A stretch of DNA of 64,000 nucleotides from Gemmatimonadota bacterium (GTDB lineage Bacteria > Gemmatimonadota > Gemmatimonadetes > Longimicrobiales > Gaopeijiaceae), in assembly GCA_028874995.1 (NCBI GenBank), contig JAPPGM010000004.1, positions 3,925 through 67,924 on the forward strand, written 5' to 3'. The translations under genes were made by a program, and so were the position numbers. The notes under the pieces were generated by a model, which worked only from the letters and a program-made list of their open reading frames with translations, was not told where the DNA came from and made no database searches. Positions 14,048 through 64,000 of the stretch are shown in pieces; the first letter of the stretch is position 1; every line of letters starts with the position of its first letter.

Positions 14048-14105
14048 GCTGAAGCTAGCGTTGTGTGAACGAATCCGCACGAGCACCGGGAACGGGGAGG
14101 CGCCG

Positions 14106-14175
14106 GGGTGGCAAGGCGCGACGAGAGGTGAATAGCAGGGCTATTCGCCCGAGGAGCAACGCACGGCCGCCACGC
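14106..14175. repeat. REP-like palindromic element between the Ig-like lipoprotein gene and rex
   Basis: The core is GGTGAATAGC-AGG-GCTATTCGCC (14127-14149), a ten-pair stem with one mismatch and a three-base loop. It is flanked by GTGGC at 14108 and GCCAC at 14169, which can extend the fold, with GGCGCGACGAG and GAGGAGCAACGC between. No T-run follows, so it is not a classic terminator. The layout resembles dispersed intergenic palindromes I recall from other GC-rich genomes. There is only one copy in this window. Confidence 0.5.
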
Positions 14176-41278: not shown

Positions 41279-42907
41279 TCAGGAATCCCGGCGGGGCACC
41301 CGGCCCACCCGGTCCGGAACGATCCCCAGCACGAACACCAGGAAACAGGCCACACCCAACAGGTCGCCGATACGGGTGTAGACCGTGAAGGCACCGCGCC
41401 GCTCTACGGACAGGACTGCAATGCCCTCTTCCCCCGCCCCCGGCGCGAGGGCGGAAGCGCGGCCCTCCGGCGACACGGCGAAGGTGTGCCCCGTCGTAGC
41501 CACCTGGATCACCGAGATGCGGTTCTCGATGGCCCGCAGCCGCGCGTGCGTCGCGTGCTGCCAGTACGCCCATGTGGTGCGGAAGGGCCGCTCGGGGTCC
41601 AGCCAGTCGTCGTTGGACAGAACGGCCAGCCACTGCGCTCCGGCCAGAACCAGCGCCCGGGCCGTCGGGCCGTACGCCGAGTCGTAGCAGACCATGGCAC
41701 CCACCAGTCCACCGTTCAGAGGGAGGGGTTGTGGGTCCCGGCCCCGCCCATACCCCCGGCTGGCCCGACCGAGGGTGCCGGCGGGCAGCCAGCCGATCCC
41801 TTCCAGCCCCGGCACGAGGCGGCTCTTGCGGTACGCCGGCGAAAGCGCGCCCCCGGCCGGCTGCACGTAGGCGGCGTTGTACCACACGGTGTCCCGCCCC
41901 GCTTCGACGAGCCCCGCGTCGAGGGCGCCCACGAGCGTGGCCGTGCCCAGTGCCGCGGCGAAGTCCGCCACGCGCAGCCCCGTGTCCGTGGGCACTCCGT
42001 TGCCCGGGTGCCTGAGCGCCGCCGCCAGAAAGCGCTCGGGAAAGACGGCCAAGTCGAAGGGCCGCTCCGCCGCCAGATCGCGGAGCGGTGGGAGCCATCG
42101 CTCCAGTTCAGCGGCCGCCCCCGTCCCGCTCCCTCCGTGACCGGCCTGCACCGCCGCCACCGTGGTGGCCACTTCGACCTCCTCGAACCCGCGCTGGCGC
42201 AGCTGACCCGCCAGGAGGGGAACGCCGACCACCGCCAGCAACACGACCACACCACGCACCGCCCTGGAACCGTCACCCTCGCGAGCCCGGCATGCGATCA
42301 CCCCCAGCCCCCCTCCCACCGCCACCGTCCAGAACGTCAGGAAGCGGGCGCCAAGCAACTCCGCCCCCCCGGCCACCGCCGGATACCACCCCAGCGATCC
42401 CCCCGCGTGCAGCCACGCGTACGACACGCCCGGCACATGCGCGGCCGCCCATTCGAACCCCGTCCAGCACGCCGCGAGGGTCACCGGAAGCGGCCATCGC
42501 CTCGCACGATGTAGCGCCGTGGCGCCGGAACACGCGGCACCCCCCAACAACCCGAGCATCGCAACCACCAGCAGGTAGACCGGCACCGCCAGCCGGGTCC
42601 TCCACGACAGGGCGGGCACCATCCAGTAGAGCCCGATGGCGTGGGCGGTGGCGGCCGCCACGAACCCGTGCATGAACGGGGTGACGGAGAAGGTGGGCGC
42701 GGGGCGGGAACCGTCACGTTGCAGCGCGGCCGCCAACGGCGCGAAGGCGACGAAGGGGAGCACCGGCCCCCCGAACGGCGAGAAGGTGGCGCCGATCGCG
42801 ACACCGGAGACGGCCGCCAGCAATCCGTGGACAGAGCCGCCCGGGCACCTAGAGCGGCGAGACGCCGGGCTGGCGAGGCCACCCCCCAGTGCCCAGCCCA
42901 TCGCCAT
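41279..42907 (-). CDS. lnt: Apolipoprotein N-acyltransferase
   Basis: Last enzyme of lipoprotein maturation at the inner membrane. 542 residues: about six to eight hydrophobic segments in the first 230, then a periplasmic nitrilase-like domain. The catalytic residues can be placed: Glu in LAVFPERFL, Lys in AYRKSRLVPGLEG, Cys in GAMVCYDSAYG. The usual CYE reads CYD here. A C-terminal hydrophobic segment closes the protein (GDLLGVACFLVFVLGI). The start at 42907 overlaps the Gfo/Idh stop by one base (TGATG). Internal starts near residue 25 are possible. Its presence fits lolA nearby and the lipoproteins in this window. Confidence 0.92.
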   Translation of the reverse strand: MAMGWALGGGLASPASRRSRCPGGSVHGLLAAVSGVAIGATFSPFGGPVLPFVAFAPLAAALQRDGSRPAPTFSVTPFMHGFVAAATAHAIGLYWMVPALSWRTRLAVPVYLLVVAMLGLLGGAACSGATALHRARRWPLPVTLAACWTGFEWAAAHVPGVSYAWLHAGGSLGWYPAVAGGAELLGARFLTFWTVAVGGGLGVIACRAREGDGSRAVRGVVVLLAVVGVPLLAGQLRQRGFEEVEVATTVAAVQAGHGGSGTGAAAELERWLPPLRDLAAERPFDLAVFPERFLAAALRHPGNGVPTDTGLRVADFAAALGTATLVGALDAGLVEAGRDTVWYNAAYVQPAGGALSPAYRKSRLVPGLEGIGWLPAGTLGRASRGYGRGRDPQPLPLNGGLVGAMVCYDSAYGPTARALVLAGAQWLAVLSNDDWLDPERPFRTTWAYWQHATHARLRAIENRISVIQVATTGHTFAVSPEGRASALAPGAGEEGIAVLSVERRGAFTVYTRIGDLLGVACFLVFVLGIVPDRVGRVPRRDS

Positions 42908-43932: not shown

Positions 43933-45380
43933 GCCGTGAGTCTCCCTGTCAGGTCGTAGTCGTCGGCCTCCACAATCTCCACTTCAACGATATCACCCGG
44001 GCGAACCGAAGCGGCACCGGTCAGGTAGGTCCGCCCGTCGACTTCGGGGGCCTGGCCGCCGGTGCGGCCCACCGCATCGTGGCCGTCTTCGCCATGGGTC
44101 AGCGAGTCCACCAGGACCTCGGTGCGGCGCCCCACCCATCCCTGGTTCGATTCCCACGAGATCTCGCGCTGGCGCTCCATCACCGTCTCCAGACGCTCGG
44201 CCTTCACCTCGTCGGGGACCTGGTCCGGCATCCCGGCCGCGGGCGTCCCCTCCTCGATGGAGTACGCGAAGGCGCCCAGACGGTCGAAGCGGATCTCCTC
44301 GAGGAAGTCCAGCATGATGCGCACGTCCTCGTCGGTCTCGCCGGGGAAGCCCACGATCACCGAGGTGCGCAGCGTCAGGTCCTCGATCTCGTCACGCAGC
44401 CACCGCACCCGTTCGCGTACCGTCCTCTGCCGCTCCGGGCGTCGCATGCGGGCGAGCACGCGGTCGCTGCCGTGTTGCAGCGGCATGTCCAGGTAGGGCA
44501 GCAACCGCGGTTCGCGCGCCAGGAGCGAGACCAGTGCCGGCGTGATCCCCGACGGGTACATGTAGAGCAACCGGTACCAGTCGACCCCGGTCCCGTCCAG
44601 CAGCGCCTCCAGGAGGTCCTTCAGCAGCGGGGCGGAACGGTCGCGGCGCCAGAGGTCGCGGCCGTACCAGGTGGTGTCCTGCGAGACGATGTTGAGTTCG
44701 CGCACCCCCTGCTCCCCCAGTCCGCGCGCCTCGGCCACCAGGCTGTCCAGGCCGGCCGAGCGGTGGAGGCCGCGCATGTGCGGGATGGCGCAGAAGGCGC
44801 AGCGGTGGTCGCATCCCTCGCTGATCTTGAGGAAGGAGACGTGGGGAGTCTCGGTGGCCAGGATCCGCAGCGGCCGCTCCATGTTGTGCACGATGCCGTC
44901 GCGGATATGCCCGCGCGCGCGGAGCTCCGGAACCAGGCGCGACATCTCGGCGATCCCGAGGAAGAGGTCCACCTCCGGGATCTCCCGCTCCAGGTCGTCG
45001 CGGTAGCGCTGCACCATGCATCCCACGGCGGCCACCGCCTTCACCCGCCCCCGATCCTTCAGCGCACAGGCGTTCAGGATCGTGTCGATGGACTGCTCCT
45101 TGGCCGCGTCGATGAAGCCGCAGGTGTTCACCACAACCACGTCCGCGTTCTCCACGTCGCTGGTGACGCGGGCGCCGGCCGCGACGAGGGCGGCCATCAT
45201 GTGCTCCGAGTCGACGGTGTTCTTGTCGCACCCCAGGGTGACGAGACCCAGGCGCGGCCCGCCCTCGGGGCCGACGTCGAAGGAGCGCGGATCGACCGCG
45301 CTCACGCCGGGATCGACGCCCGGTCGCACCGGACCGGCCGCCACCGGGAAGACCGGCAACTCGCGTGTGCGGAGTCTCAT
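43929..45380 (-). CDS. rimO: Ribosomal protein S12 methylthiotransferase RimO
   Basis: Radical SAM methylthiotransferase acting on an Asp of ribosomal protein S12. The track ORF to 45953 is too long. The ATG at 45380 gives an ATGA overlap with lolA and 483 residues. The N-terminal UPF0004 domain has LVTLGCDKNTVDSEHMM, VVNTCGFIDAAKEQSID and VAAVGCMVQRY (three cluster Cys). The radical SAM motif is KISEGCDHRCAFCAIPHMRG. The C-terminal TRAM domain includes TEVLVDSLTHGEDG and VEIVEADDYDLTGRL. About 35 extra residues precede the first domain. MiaB is the main alternative, but the DKN and IPHMRG patterns favour RimO. Confidence 0.94.
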   Translation of the reverse strand: MRLRTRELPVFPVAAGPVRPGVDPGVSAVDPRSFDVGPEGGPRLGLVTLGCDKNTVDSEHMMAALVAAGARVTSDVENADVVVVNTCGFIDAAKEQSIDTILNACALKDRGRVKAVAAVGCMVQRYRDDLEREIPEVDLFLGIAEMSRLVPELRARGHIRDGIVHNMERPLRILATETPHVSFLKISEGCDHRCAFCAIPHMRGLHRSAGLDSLVAEARGLGEQGVRELNIVSQDTTWYGRDLWRRDRSAPLLKDLLEALLDGTGVDWYRLLYMYPSGITPALVSLLAREPRLLPYLDMPLQHGSDRVLARMRRPERQRTVRERVRWLRDEIEDLTLRTSVIVGFPGETDEDVRIMLDFLEEIRFDRLGAFAYSIEEGTPAAGMPDQVPDEVKAERLETVMERQREISWESNQGWVGRRTEVLVDSLTHGEDGHDAVGRTGGQAPEVDGRTYLTGAASVRPGDIVEVEIVEADDYDLTGRLTA

Positions 45381-46123
45381 GGACGGGAGGGGCGTGCGGG
45401 GGACCCGGGGGGCTCGTTCGCGGCGGGCGGCGGCCCCCTGACCCTCGCCCCCTCCGGCACCTCGAAGGTGAAGAGGCCGGGGTCCAGCGCCGGCGACAGG
45501 TCCACCTCGCTGAGCGTCACGGTACGGAGGTTGCCGCTTTCTTCCGCCAACTCCAGCCGCCGGATGATGTCGTTCTCCGTGTCGAGCCACAGACGTGCCC
45601 CCAGATAGGACGCCCCGGTCCGCGGCGTGAGGGACACGACGCGGCACTCCCTTCCCTTCACCAGCTCCGTGCCCCCGTCCTCGGCCGTGTACTTGCTCGC
45701 CGGATCCTCCAGGAACTCGCGGATGAAGTCGTGCCGGCCCGGGGACTGCGCGGCCGGTTGTCGCCTCACCTGCTCCTCGTCGATGCTCGGGTAGTAGACC
45801 CAGAAGTGGGCGCCGTCCGAGATGACCATGTCGCCCTGCGGATCGGTGAAGCGCATGGAGAACAGGTTGGGCCGCTGCTGACAGACCCGCCCCGCGCTTT
45901 CGATCGTTCGCCGCACGAGCCGCACCTCGATCACCTGCTCGAAGTCCGCGCACATGGCGGCGACCTCGCGGTAGCGGGCAGCGGCTCGCTCCATGGCCCG
46001 CAAGGCCGGATCGGGCTCCTGGGCCGCGGCGGGTTCAGTCGTCAGGAGTCCCATGATCGCGACGAGGGCGATCGTTCCGGCCGACCGTGGGCAGAATCGC
46101 CTCGGACACTGTAATGCCAACAT
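45377..46123 (-). CDS. lolA: Outer-membrane lipoprotein carrier protein LolA
   Basis: Periplasmic chaperone that ferries lipoproteins to the outer membrane. The ATG at 46123 gives 248 residues with a signal peptide: basic CPRRFCPRS, hydrophobic TIALVAIMGLL, cleavage after AAA near residue 35. The mature part shows ADFEQVIEVRL, GRVCQQRPNLFSMRFTDPQG, DGAHFWVYYPSIDEEQV and ASYLGARLWLDTENDIIRRL. The C-terminal tail is Pro-rich. Its start codon lies within an AT-rich palindrome cluster. lnt and rimO are downstream in the same run. The track start at 46432 is inside ftsK and is rejected. Confidence 0.92.
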   Translation of the reverse strand: MLALQCPRRFCPRSAGTIALVAIMGLLTTEPAAAQEPDPALRAMERAAARYREVAAMCADFEQVIEVRLVRRTIESAGRVCQQRPNLFSMRFTDPQGDMVISDGAHFWVYYPSIDEEQVRRQPAAQSPGRHDFIREFLEDPASKYTAEDGGTELVKGRECRVVSLTPRTGASYLGARLWLDTENDIIRRLELAEESGNLRTVTLSEVDLSPALDPGLFTFEVPEGARVRGPPPAANEPPGSPARPSRP

Positions 46124-46150
46124 TACATTTTGTAAGCTACAGTATACATT
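46110..46150. promoter_or_regulatory. AT-rich palindrome cluster and -10 box at the lolA start
   Basis: TGTAATG-CCAA-CATTACA (46110-46127) is a perfect 7-base inverted repeat covering the lolA start codon. It overlaps TTACA-TTT-TGTAA, and TGTA-AGC-TACA follows. On the minus strand a TATACT hexamer (46146-46141) is a good -10 box. No strong -35 is seen. The 40-base stretch is far richer in A and T than its surroundings. It looks like an operator/promoter with a very short leader. Confidence 0.5.
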
Positions 46151-46248
46151 TCTTTTCTCCGAAGCCCTCCCAGCCGTCCGACCGAGGGCCATCGGCGCTG
46201 TCCATCCCCTCTCGCCGCCCCTTGGCAGTCTCGCGTCTCTCCGGCTGG

Positions 46249-48630
46249 TCACACCGGGCATATCTCGTCCAGCTCCGCCATCATGACCAGGACCTCCCTC
46301 GGCTTGGAACCGTCGGGCGGCCCCAGCACCCCCGCGTCGTGCAGCTGGTCGACGATCCTCGCGGCCCGCCCATACCCGATGCGCAGCCGGCGCTGCAGGA
46401 GTGAAGTGGACCCGGCCTTCTGCTGGATGCACGCCTCGGCCGCCTGCCGGAAGAGCGGATCCCAGTCGCCGCGGATGACGCCGTCGCCCGCGTCGCCGTC
46501 ATCCGCCTCCATCGCCTTCACCACTTCCAGGATGTCGCCCTCGTCGCTCTTCACTCGCGCCTTGAGCGCTTCGAGGGTTTCGGCCTGGTCCCGGTACCAC
46601 CCCATCAGCGCCTCCGTCTCGTCGGTGGAGATGAATGCGCCTTGCATGCGCACGGGCTCGCTCTGCCCCGGCGGGAGGAAGAGCATGTCGCCCGACCCGA
46701 GCAGCGAGTCGGCGCCGTTCTGGTCCAGAATGGTTCGAGAATCGGTCTTCGATGCAACACGGAAAGCTATGCGGCACGGGAAGTTGGCCTTGATCAGGCC
46801 AGTAACCACATTAACACTGGGACGCTGGGTCGCGACCAGGAGATGAATGCCGATGGCGCGGGCCTTCTGCGCCAGCTGGGTGAGCGGCTTCTCGACCTCG
46901 GCCTGCACCGTCATCATCAGATCGGCCAGTTCGTCCACGACCACCACGATCCAGGGAAGCGGCCCCTCCTTGTAGCGCCACCGGTCCTCGTCCTCCTCGG
47001 GGCCGTCCGGCGTAGCCAGCTTCATCTCGATCCCCTGCTCGAGGCGCTCGTTGAATTCATGCACCGACCGCACGCCGTTGGCGCTCAGGAGCCCGTAACG
47101 GCGCTCCATCTCCATGACCGCCCACTTCAGGGCCACCGCAGCGTCCCTGGGGTCGGTCACCACCGGGTGCCGCAGGTGGGGAAGGTCGGCGTAGGCGGAG
47201 AGCTCCACCATCTTGGGATCGATGAGCAGCAGGCGGAGGCGGTCGGGCGCGTGCCTGTACACGAGGCTGGTGATGACCGTGTTGAGACAGACGGACTTCC
47301 CCGAGCCGGTGGCGCCGGCGATAAGCGCGTGGGGCATCTTCGTCAGGTCGGAGACGAAGGGCCTGCCGGTCAGATCCTTGCCGAGCGCCAGCGGGAGCAG
47401 GCCGCGCGACCGGGCAAAGAGCGGCGCTTCGAGAATCTCGCGCAGACGCACGATCTCGGTGCGCGGGTTCGGAATCTCGACGCCCACGGCGCCCTTGCCC
47501 GGAATCGGGGCGACGATGCGCACGCTCCTCGCCTTCATTGCCAGCGCCAGGTCCGCGTCCAGGTTCGCGATGCGGTTGACCTTCACGCCCGCCGCCGGAA
47601 CGACCTCGTAGCGCGTCACGGCGGGGCCCGTGGTGCGCCCCGAAATCTCGCCGCTGATGTTGAAGGTCCGGAGCGTCTCGACGAGGACGTCGCCGAGACG
47701 GTCCAGTTCGCGCTCCATGCCCAGCCGGTTGCCGCGCTCCGGGGCGCGCAGGAGTTCCAGCGCGGGGAGGGGGTAGTCGGGGGGCGGGAGGTGGTCCTCG
47801 GGGAGGAGGTCGGGGGTGGAGGGGGCGTCCGTGGTGGGCGGATCGGTATCGGTGGTCACGGTGTCCGGCTCCGGGGTCGTGACGGAAAGGGCGGCCGCCG
47901 GGGTGTCCGGCTGCCCGGGCGCGGACCGGGCCGCGCGGGCCTGCCGCCTGGCCGCCCGCCGCTCCAGGCGCCGGCCACCCCACCCTCGCACTGCCAACCC
48001 GGTCGCGCGAGCGCCCCGCCCCACGCCCCGGAAGAGCTTTCCGGCCACCCGCGCCAGTGGCGCCAGCGGGTTGAAGGTGAAGGCGCTCGACCAGGCGATC
48101 GCCGCAGCCGCGACGACAATGACCCAACCGCCAACCGGGCCCAGGTATTCCAGCAACGGGCTGCCCACGAGCCTGCCAAGGAAACCGCTCGGCGTATCTA
48201 CCCTCCCAAGCAGGAAGGCCGATACCGGAAGAAGTATCAACAGACCCCCGGCCACGATCCAGAGGCTCTTCCGGCGGGCGGACGCCCACCACCCTCCTAC
48301 CGAGGCGGCGGCGGCCAGCAAGCCCAACGGAACTGTGGCGACTCCGACCCCCAGTGCGCGCACGAGACGGGCATTCATGGCTTCGCCGACGGTCCCCACC
48401 GGGTTGCCCTCCGGAAAGAAGTCCACCGCCCCCGGCCCCAGCCACTGCAACGGAAACAGCGCCGCGGCCACCAGAAAGGCGAGCACGGCGGTCACGGCGG
48501 CCAGCGCCCGCCGCTGCCGCATCCGCTGCTCCGCCGACTTCTTCGGCCCACGCGGGCGCTTCTTCGGCGCGGCGCGCCTCCGGGCCGCCGGCCTCTTCGC
48601 CACCCTTCGTCCGACGCGCGGGGCTGCCAC
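46249..48630 (-). CDS. ftsK: DNA translocase FtsK
   Basis: Septal DNA pump that clears chromosome ends before division. 793 residues: a basic N-terminus, four hydrophobic segments in the first 185, a Pro/Thr/Asp-rich linker (about 225-290), then the RecA-like motor with LIAGATGSGKSVCLNTVI (Walker A), LLLIDPKMVELSAYADLPHL, and WIVVVVDELADLMM (Walker B). LATQRPSVNVVTGLIKANFP and DQNGADSLLGSGDMLFLPPG follow. The C-terminal gamma winged helix is present (TSLLQRRLRIGYGRAARIVD). The start is a GTG at 48630, seven bases after comB. The gap to lolA holds the promoter region of the next unit. Confidence 0.96.
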   Translation of the reverse strand: MAAPRVGRRVAKRPAARRRAAPKKRPRGPKKSAEQRMRQRRALAAVTAVLAFLVAAALFPLQWLGPGAVDFFPEGNPVGTVGEAMNARLVRALGVGVATVPLGLLAAAASVGGWWASARRKSLWIVAGGLLILLPVSAFLLGRVDTPSGFLGRLVGSPLLEYLGPVGGWVIVVAAAAIAWSSAFTFNPLAPLARVAGKLFRGVGRGARATGLAVRGWGGRRLERRAARRQARAARSAPGQPDTPAAALSVTTPEPDTVTTDTDPPTTDAPSTPDLLPEDHLPPPDYPLPALELLRAPERGNRLGMERELDRLGDVLVETLRTFNISGEISGRTTGPAVTRYEVVPAAGVKVNRIANLDADLALAMKARSVRIVAPIPGKGAVGVEIPNPRTEIVRLREILEAPLFARSRGLLPLALGKDLTGRPFVSDLTKMPHALIAGATGSGKSVCLNTVITSLVYRHAPDRLRLLLIDPKMVELSAYADLPHLRHPVVTDPRDAAVALKWAVMEMERRYGLLSANGVRSVHEFNERLEQGIEMKLATPDGPEEDEDRWRYKEGPLPWIVVVVDELADLMMTVQAEVEKPLTQLAQKARAIGIHLLVATQRPSVNVVTGLIKANFPCRIAFRVASKTDSRTILDQNGADSLLGSGDMLFLPPGQSEPVRMQGAFISTDETEALMGWYRDQAETLEALKARVKSDEGDILEVVKAMEADDGDAGDGVIRGDWDPLFRQAAEACIQQKAGSTSLLQRRLRIGYGRAARIVDQLHDAGVLGPPDGSKPREVLVMMAELDEICPV

Positions 48631-63144: not shown

Positions 63145-63990
63145 TCAGGGGATCTCGTCGAGCTTTTCCCGCGCCTGCTCGGCGAAACGGTCGTCCGGAT
63201 AGGTGTTGATCACACGTTCCAGGTATTCGCGGGCCCTGTCGTAGTATTCGAGCTCGACGCACAGCACCCCGGCCCGGTAGAGGGCCCTGGGGATCAGGTC
63301 CGAGGTCGGAAACATCCGGGGTATCTCGAGGTAGTCGGCGATCGCCTCATCCAGCTTGTCGTCAAGGGTCAGCAACTCACCCCTGTGAAGGTAGGCGGCG
63401 GGCACCAGCGGGCTGTTGGGATACTGGTCGATGAACGTGCTGAAGCCCCGCAGGGCGGACGTCGACAGGTCCCGTTCCTTGTTGGCGACCGCGATGTCGA
63501 ACAGTGCCTGCTCGTCCTCGCTGATGCCGCGCGGCTCCGCGGAATCCGCGACCCCGGTCTCACCACCTTCGACCGTCGAATCCCTCTCCTCCGCCTGCGC
63601 GATCCGCCGCTCCACCTCCCGCCACTGGGCATCCAGATCGTCGCTCAGCCGCTCCAGCGTGCGCAGGTTCTGGGTCGCGAGTTCGCGGACACCCTCCAGT
63701 TCCTTCTCGATCTCAAGCTGTCTCCCGCTGGCGCTTCCCCGGAGGTTGAACATCCGTTCCGAAAGGGCGAGCACCGAGTCCATCGCCGCGTGGTGCTGCT
63801 CGTCAACCGAACGCCGCATCGCGGCTATGGCCGAGTCCTGCCGGGCCGAAAGCGCCAGCACCTCGCTCCGGAGGTCCTCGACGTCGCCTCTTGTCGCGCA
63901 CGCCCCGAGTGGAATCAGAAGGACCAGCAGCCCGGGGAACTTGCCGACCCGGCACCTCACCGCTCTCCGTGCTCGGGCGGGTTTAGCCAC
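63145..63990 (-). CDS. CpoB/YbgF-like TPR lipoprotein
   Basis: 281 visible residues. The N-terminal signal ends in a good lipobox (LLVLLIPLGAC), so the mature protein is probably an envelope lipoprotein. Residues about 35-130 are coiled coil (VEDLRSEVLALSARQDSAIA), and the C-terminal 115 residues are TPR repeats (LFDIAVANKERDLSTSALRG, AREYLERVINTYPDDRFAEQ), the CpoB/YbgF arrangement. The start is a GTG at 63990, or another GTG ten codons later. The frame stays open to the window edge. In another frame a TAA at 63983-63985 could be the end of an upstream gene such as pal, so coupling is possible. BamD is an alternative. Confidence 0.82.
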   Translation of the reverse strand: MAKPARARRAVRCRVGKFPGLLVLLIPLGACATRGDVEDLRSEVLALSARQDSAIAAMRRSVDEQHHAAMDSVLALSERMFNLRGSASGRQLEIEKELEGVRELATQNLRTLERLSDDLDAQWREVERRIAQAEERDSTVEGGETGVADSAEPRGISEDEQALFDIAVANKERDLSTSALRGFSTFIDQYPNSPLVPAAYLHRGELLTLDDKLDEAIADYLEIPRMFPTSDLIPRALYRAGVLCVELEYYDRAREYLERVINTYPDDRFAEQAREKLDEIP

Positions 63991-64000
63991 GAACTGCCAG

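Follow-up and report, generated by a model that had tools for sequence, protein, structure and literature searches.

A putative tandem operator at the lolA start of a Gemmatimonadota bacterium, its candidate mod-linked regulator and a MITE-like repeat

The start codon of lolA in a stretch of Gemmatimonadota DNA of 64,000 nucleotides (the window) lies in one of two adjacent 18-bp boxes, which recur together as a 39-bp unit throughout one genus. The explanation which we favour, at a probability of about 0.78, is that the unit is a tandem operator for a regulator with an XRE-HTH and a PBP_like domain encoded beside modA and modB, and that it has been multiplied genus-wide, partly by a MITE-like repeat, the copy at lolA included. 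The predicted regulator would probably repress lolA in trans. The original prediction, made from the letters of the window, proposed an unknown repressor at this place; what it did not see were the arrangement in two boxes, the spread of the unit over a whole genus, the candidate for the regulator and the mobile repeat.

Two boxes over the lolA start

An AT-rich cluster of nested palindromes in otherwise very GC-rich DNA had been described here, and the GC content is indeed 37% over 60 bp against ~68-70% nearby. The lolA ATG (46123-46121, minus strand) is covered by the first palindrome as claimed, and every quoted string was found where it had been reported: the first palindrome TGTAATGCCAACATTACA (TGTAATG-CCAA-CATTACA) at 46110-46127, TTACATTTTGTAA (TTACA-TTT-TGTAA), TGTAAGCTACA (TGTA-AGC-TACA), TATACT on the minus strand at 46146-46141, and GCCCTC at 46164-46169 with GAGGGC at 46184-46189. 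The strings stand, whereas the idea of three nested palindromes does not. The alignment of copies resolves them into two 18-bp boxes and their junction: TTACATTTTGTAA is the junction, and both TGTAAGCTACA and TATACT lie inside the second box (box B). The unit at 46110-46148 consists of two 18-bp boxes which always stand 21 bp apart, and 50 copies from this genome (G000) align to the consensus AA-TGTATACTATACATKACA-WAA-TGTAATGTNNNCATTACA-T. Scored with a 42-bp matrix the lolA site reaches 67.5, close to the training median of 68.2, and the same matrix gave no hit of 15 or more in 1 Mb of reversed control DNA. The features of the locus are collected in Table 1.

Cooperative binding had been suggested from the repeated half-sites, and the fixed 21-bp tandem register in which these half-sites recur in many genomic copies is what a cooperative operator would look like. 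The two palindromes would be sites for one dimeric transcription factor, and two dimers would sit side by side on one face of the DNA, two helical turns apart. BlaI/MecI/CopY-type sites have the form TACA-nn-TGTA. This class was rejected, as the TACA/TGTA junction is 3 bp here, the boxes run the opposite way and the co-occurring regulator belongs to another family. A sigma-70 promoter or a terminator at the lolA site was likewise rejected, no consensus-level match being found. The GCCCTC...GAGGGC hairpin is probably part of a repeat arm (see below).

The palindromes could also be incidental to an element which works at the RNA level, either a leader peptide (MYTVAYKM*) coupled to lolA via TAATG or a hairpin. 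A GGAG and an 8-codon frame do precede the lolA ATG both in G000 and in its closest relative G012, where the frame reads MYTVDYKM*, and the RNA of this region is more stably folded than its shuffled versions (z = -3.0). Most copies of the unit, however, either run against the gene downstream of them (21 of 33 tandem cases) or lie far from any start, and symmetrical boxes with a free N4 spacer are the pattern of a DNA dimer site, so that we find an RNA-level element very improbable. The 8-codon frame, putative role aside, probably exists as a side effect of the operator sequence, for which we prefer the reading as a pair of protein-binding sites. A similar small frame can be read from many of the operator copies.

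Table 1. Features at the lolA locus and copies of the dispersed repeat in the window
Feature	Position in window	Strand	Remarks
lolA, outer-membrane lipoprotein chaperone	45377..46123	-	TIGR00547 lolA E 4e-24, bits under curated cut-off; start in box A
ftsK, gene upstream of lolA	46249..48522	-	NF007615 DNA translocase FtsK E 2e-134, bits under full-length cut-off
Operator box A TGTAATGTTGGCATTACA	46110..46127	-	7-4-7 palindrome, holds lolA start codon
Linker AAA, 3 bp	46128..46130	-	sets 21-bp register; equal length in essentially all aligned copies
Operator box B TGTATACTGTAGCTTACA	46131..46148	-	degenerate palindrome including TATACT; alignment of 50 copies
TATACT, -10-like hexamer in box B	46141..46146	-	from sequence; function putative
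8-codon frame ATGTATACTGTAGCTTACAAAATGTAA, MYTVAYKM*	46123..46149	-	GGAG before; TAATG overlap with lolA ATG
GCCCTC...GAGGGC hairpin	46164..46189	-	upstream of box B; without T run
Repeat left-arm remnant between ftsK and lolA	46186..46243	-	58-bp gapless alignment, 71% identity
Possible repeat right-end remnant (lolA codons 7-14)	46084..46105	-	HMM E 2.3, too weak to be significant by itself
Repeat left-arm copy or fragment, no operator	14064..14163	+	HMM E 1.5e-23
Repeat left-arm copy or fragment, no operator	42821..42879	+	HMM E 6e-10
Repeat left-arm copy or fragment, no operator	63940..63996	-	HMM E 5.8e-11
Repeat ends, alternative writing			GCAGTCCGTGGAT...TCCACGGGCTGC

Copies in the genus and a candidate regulator

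Within the window TGTAATG-N4-CATTACA has no further copy, even with 3 mismatches, and taken alone it would therefore pass for a curiosity. The original prediction named as its refutation the lack of a second copy in the genome and of conservation upstream of lolA in relatives, and it withstood this test. There are 24 exact copies in the 4.5 Mb of this genome, and 51, 89 and 157 when at most one, two or three mismatches are allowed; the backwards control gave 0 exact matches and 0, 0 and 13, respectively. Sites with at most one mismatch occur in 22 of the 23 genus genomes, 4 to 86 per genome; of the order's 36 remaining genomes one had a single copy. In the phylum as a whole (395 genomes, 372 of them outside the genus) exact matches are confined to 21 genus genomes and one single hit elsewhere.

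Tens of scattered intergenic copies, many of them by unrelated genes, could be expected of a site of chromosome organisation such as matS, SBS or NBS, which serves a nucleoid or partition protein and is not a gene-regulatory operator. Against this stands the uniform spread of the 38 sites along G021, a complete genome (KS p = 0.42, Rayleigh p = 0.44), unlike that of macrodomain sites and the reason why a ter-type chromosome site was rejected, and the fact that the one site conserved in all species adjoins a regulator gene. We give this explanation very little credence.

The regulator was sought via the site which persists in genomes with few sites. Genomes with 4-7 sites have one recurring site, with the constant spacer TAGA, directly upstream of a gene for a protein with an XRE-HTH and a PBP_like domain; next downstream of this gene come modA and modB, both above the NCBIfam curated cut-offs. 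The copy in this genome (365 amino acids) is found on contig C30 (locus L020:3129-4226), a different contig from that of lolA. The regulator is present in 22 of 23 genus genomes, one copy in each (G005 has a second fragment too), and in all 22 its start codon is preceded, at a distance of 30-108 bp, by the double operator. The remaining genome, G008, is the sole one in the genus without sites. The only relative outside the genus with a near match, the outgroup G033, has its site ~120 bp before a gene homologous to that of the regulator (53% identity), where the promoter again shows two boxes. The presence of sites tracks that of the regulator, G008 having neither and G033 both. A repressor acting in trans had been postulated because no regulator gene adjoins lolA; there is now a single candidate gene, on another contig, which carries the same double operator and whose product very probably binds the 39-bp unit.

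The regulator is composed of HTH_3 and PBP_like according to Pfam and NCBIfam; its HTH matches PF01381 HTH_3 (E 5e-12), with CylR2 as the best PDB match. The sensor half is similar to a domain found at the C-terminal end of a molybdopterin-biosynthesis protein. It was modelled, with good confidence (pLDDT 89), as a periplasmic-binding-protein fold, and the matches to the model include molybdate-, sulfate- and phosphate-binding proteins. The protein would probably sense an oxyanion such as molybdate and probably represses its own mod operon. The G005 matches to the regulator are partial, with a contig edge plus the second fragment (among L165, L168 and L172). In G010 the match covers residues 1-222 only, yet this genome has 62 sites; the sensor domain may be altered or truncated there.

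In having the regulator gene directly upstream of modA-modB the arrangement is like that of ModE-type molybdate regulators of modABC. ModE consists of a ModE HTH and molybdate-binding MOP/TOBE domains. The present protein differs in family, being an XRE-HTH with a PBP_like domain, and in its operator, and Pfam and NCBIfam gave no hit to a ModE or TOBE domain in it. XRE-family autoregulators with palindromic operators, e.g. CylR2, are known and have been surveyed (PMC12565409). They share with the present system a Cro/CI-type HTH, a palindromic site before their own gene and a dimeric half-site logic; the PBP_like sensor domain, the two boxes in a 21-bp register and the dozens of sites as against one or few set it apart. 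The survey makes no mention of molybdate or of TGTAATG/CATTACA half-sites. No named XRE-PBP_like molybdate regulator was found in the open-access literature, nor a description of this type of regulator with this operator or of the dispersal of the operator. A structurally recognisable type of regulator (XRE-HTH and PBP_like, next to modAB) is here paired with a precise putative binding motif, and the pair is open to in vitro study without culturing the organisms.

A dispersed repeat and its targets

About 15 operator copies share 230-240 bp around the core. The repeat of ~240 bp to which they belong has 49 matches in the genome and terminal inverted repeats GCAGTCCGTGGATAAAG... and ...TCCACGGGCTGC; being short, multicopy and intergenic as well, it is in these respects like a MITE. 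No obvious target-site duplication is seen in the alignment flanks of the element, and the 9-bp repeats GAGCGAAGC border the operator insert, not the element. Copies without the operator (L245 = G000:C120:1107-1424, L243, L247 and L249) have their two arms joined directly at one GAGCGAAGC; in those with the operator ~66 bp separate two of them. The difference resembles the result of an insertion that duplicated 9 bp, or else of a deletion from one direct repeat to the other. The window holds at least 3 operator-less left-arm copies or fragments.

Among 50 sites of this genome 10 have both arms of the repeat, 7 have one and 33 have none but the ~40-bp core in common. None of the 20 sites in few-site genomes has repeat arms, nor has the mod site, and the operator is therefore older than its association with the repeat. 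Multiplied to dozens of copies in the genus, it would have been carried by the repeat in part of the expansion, for about a third of the sites as judged from the arms. Prokaryotic MITEs which carry binding sites are known from the Correia elements with their IHF sites (PMC10969869). Like these, the present repeat is a small non-coding inverted repeat which occupies many intergenic places and brings a protein-binding site beside genes; unlike in them, the site belongs to one specific one-component regulator that has an operon of its own, and not to the general nucleoid protein IHF, and many of the operator sites lie outside the repeat. MITEs with binding sites and XRE autoregulators are thus known kinds, and the dispersal of a specific operator by a MITE-like repeat would add a new form to them.

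Genes around the sites were called with a simple codon-usage caller on stretches of genome. Most sites lie in tandem intergenic gaps before functionally mixed genes. The targets include the mod operon, rpsB, sucD, prfB, rfaE domain II and pntB, and further ones are prolyl oligopeptidases, peptidases, a TonB receptor, a P450 and transporters. The mod operon, a xanthine/CO-dehydrogenase-type FAD subunit and a sulfite-oxidase-like protein fit a molybdenum theme; most targets do not, and a dedicated molybdenum-enzyme regulon was rejected. An avoidance of convergent gaps, which seemed present by eye, was rejected too (3/42 against 7/78 background gaps, Fisher p = 1). The type of gap at the sites, tandem, divergent or convergent, does not differ significantly from that of other gaps, so that the place of the sites does not by itself argue for a promoter function. 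In few-site genomes three targets besides mod recur: an amidase/beta-propeller pair in 5 genomes, and an oligopeptide-type ABC transporter and a Rieske/cytochrome b operon in 2 each. The operator is placed between the amidase gene and the divergent gene of beta-propeller (PD40) type in all five genomes with few sites (L131, L134, L138, L141 and L142), which may make this pair, like the mod operon, an ancestral target.

With targets so mixed, some of the copies may simply have been carried along by the repeat. Taken further, the sites would mainly be passengers of a selfish repeat which had acquired the mod operator, perhaps for the help that the regulator gives to its spread or its silencing, and most of them, that at lolA included, would be non-regulatory or titrate the regulator. 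The 17 of 50 sites with arms (at E < 1e-3), the housekeeping genes among the targets and the genic position, which is like that of other gaps, all agree with such a view. Against it stand the 33 sites which consist of the core without arms, and the footprint seen in 16 orthologous site pairs of G000 and G012. Identity between the two is 98% in the box A arms, 94% in box B and 83% in the linker, and drops to 63% in the box A spacer and 60% in the flanks within 35 bp; sites had been chosen on box A (ascertained) and not on box B, and the conservation of box B is therefore not an effect of this choice. The lolA site itself has the N4 spacer TTGG in G000 and TTTA in G012, with both box A arms intact. 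As a general account we consider the passenger explanation unlikely, while for many copies it carries real weight.

Regulons are usually thought to gain sites one by one. A reading more far-reaching than the one which we favour can be given, at slightly less than even odds: a molybdate-operon regulator would have turned genome-wide within one genus, after a repeat captured its double operator, brought it to unrelated genes (rpsB, prfB, sucD, lolA) and even supplied the start codon of lolA. If true, this would be transposable-element rewiring of a specific bacterial regulon, with its stages preserved in sister species. The genus spans a handful to >80 operator copies, its one regulator can be identified, and the vehicle of part of the spread can be seen, so that the growth of a regulon through a mobile repeat would be traceable species by species.

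The lolA locus in related genomes

Orthologues of lolA were found in all 23 genus genomes. Conservation upstream of lolA, the other half of the test set by the original prediction, holds in the closest relative and fails elsewhere: G000 and G012, both with a gap between ftsK and lolA, have the operator there, and the other 21 genomes have none at this position, so that it is not a conserved lolA control. In G020 a site is present at the locus, outside lolA, and in some other genus genomes lolA begins at or inside the end of ftsK. The gene order downstream of lolA was confirmed as rimO, a Gfo/Idh-type oxidoreductase, lnt, prfA and prmC.

In the common ancestor of G000 and G012 a repeat most likely entered between ftsK and lolA and brought the lolA copy with it, and the site would now lie within a decayed copy of that repeat. 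The left-arm remnant is in the same register as in intact copies, and 0 of 2000 shuffles score as high, while the repeat-arm HMM alone gives E 0.3, which is not significant. The right-end match lies 48 bp nearer than in intact copies and is suggestive of a remnant. The signal peptide of LolA, read from the translation, begins at the ATG in box A (or the adjoining TTG) and later starts truncate it, so LolA needs this start; the insertion therefore seems to have supplied lolA with both its operator and its start codon. A regulator bound here would cover the lolA promoter region and start and block transcription into lolA-rimO, and a change in the oxyanion signal would release it.

The LolA relatives are, by their database names, from uncultured Gemmatimonadota MAGs, several of which we take from the isolate names to come from marine sponges. 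A short operator-less repeat copy, GGCAGTCCGTGGATAAGG...GTCCACGGGCTGCC, was read by eye in the ftsK-lolA gap of G018 (L062). The LolA homologue of G007 (L103, G007:C358) has one in-frame TGA and is either a pseudogene or the product of an assembly error.
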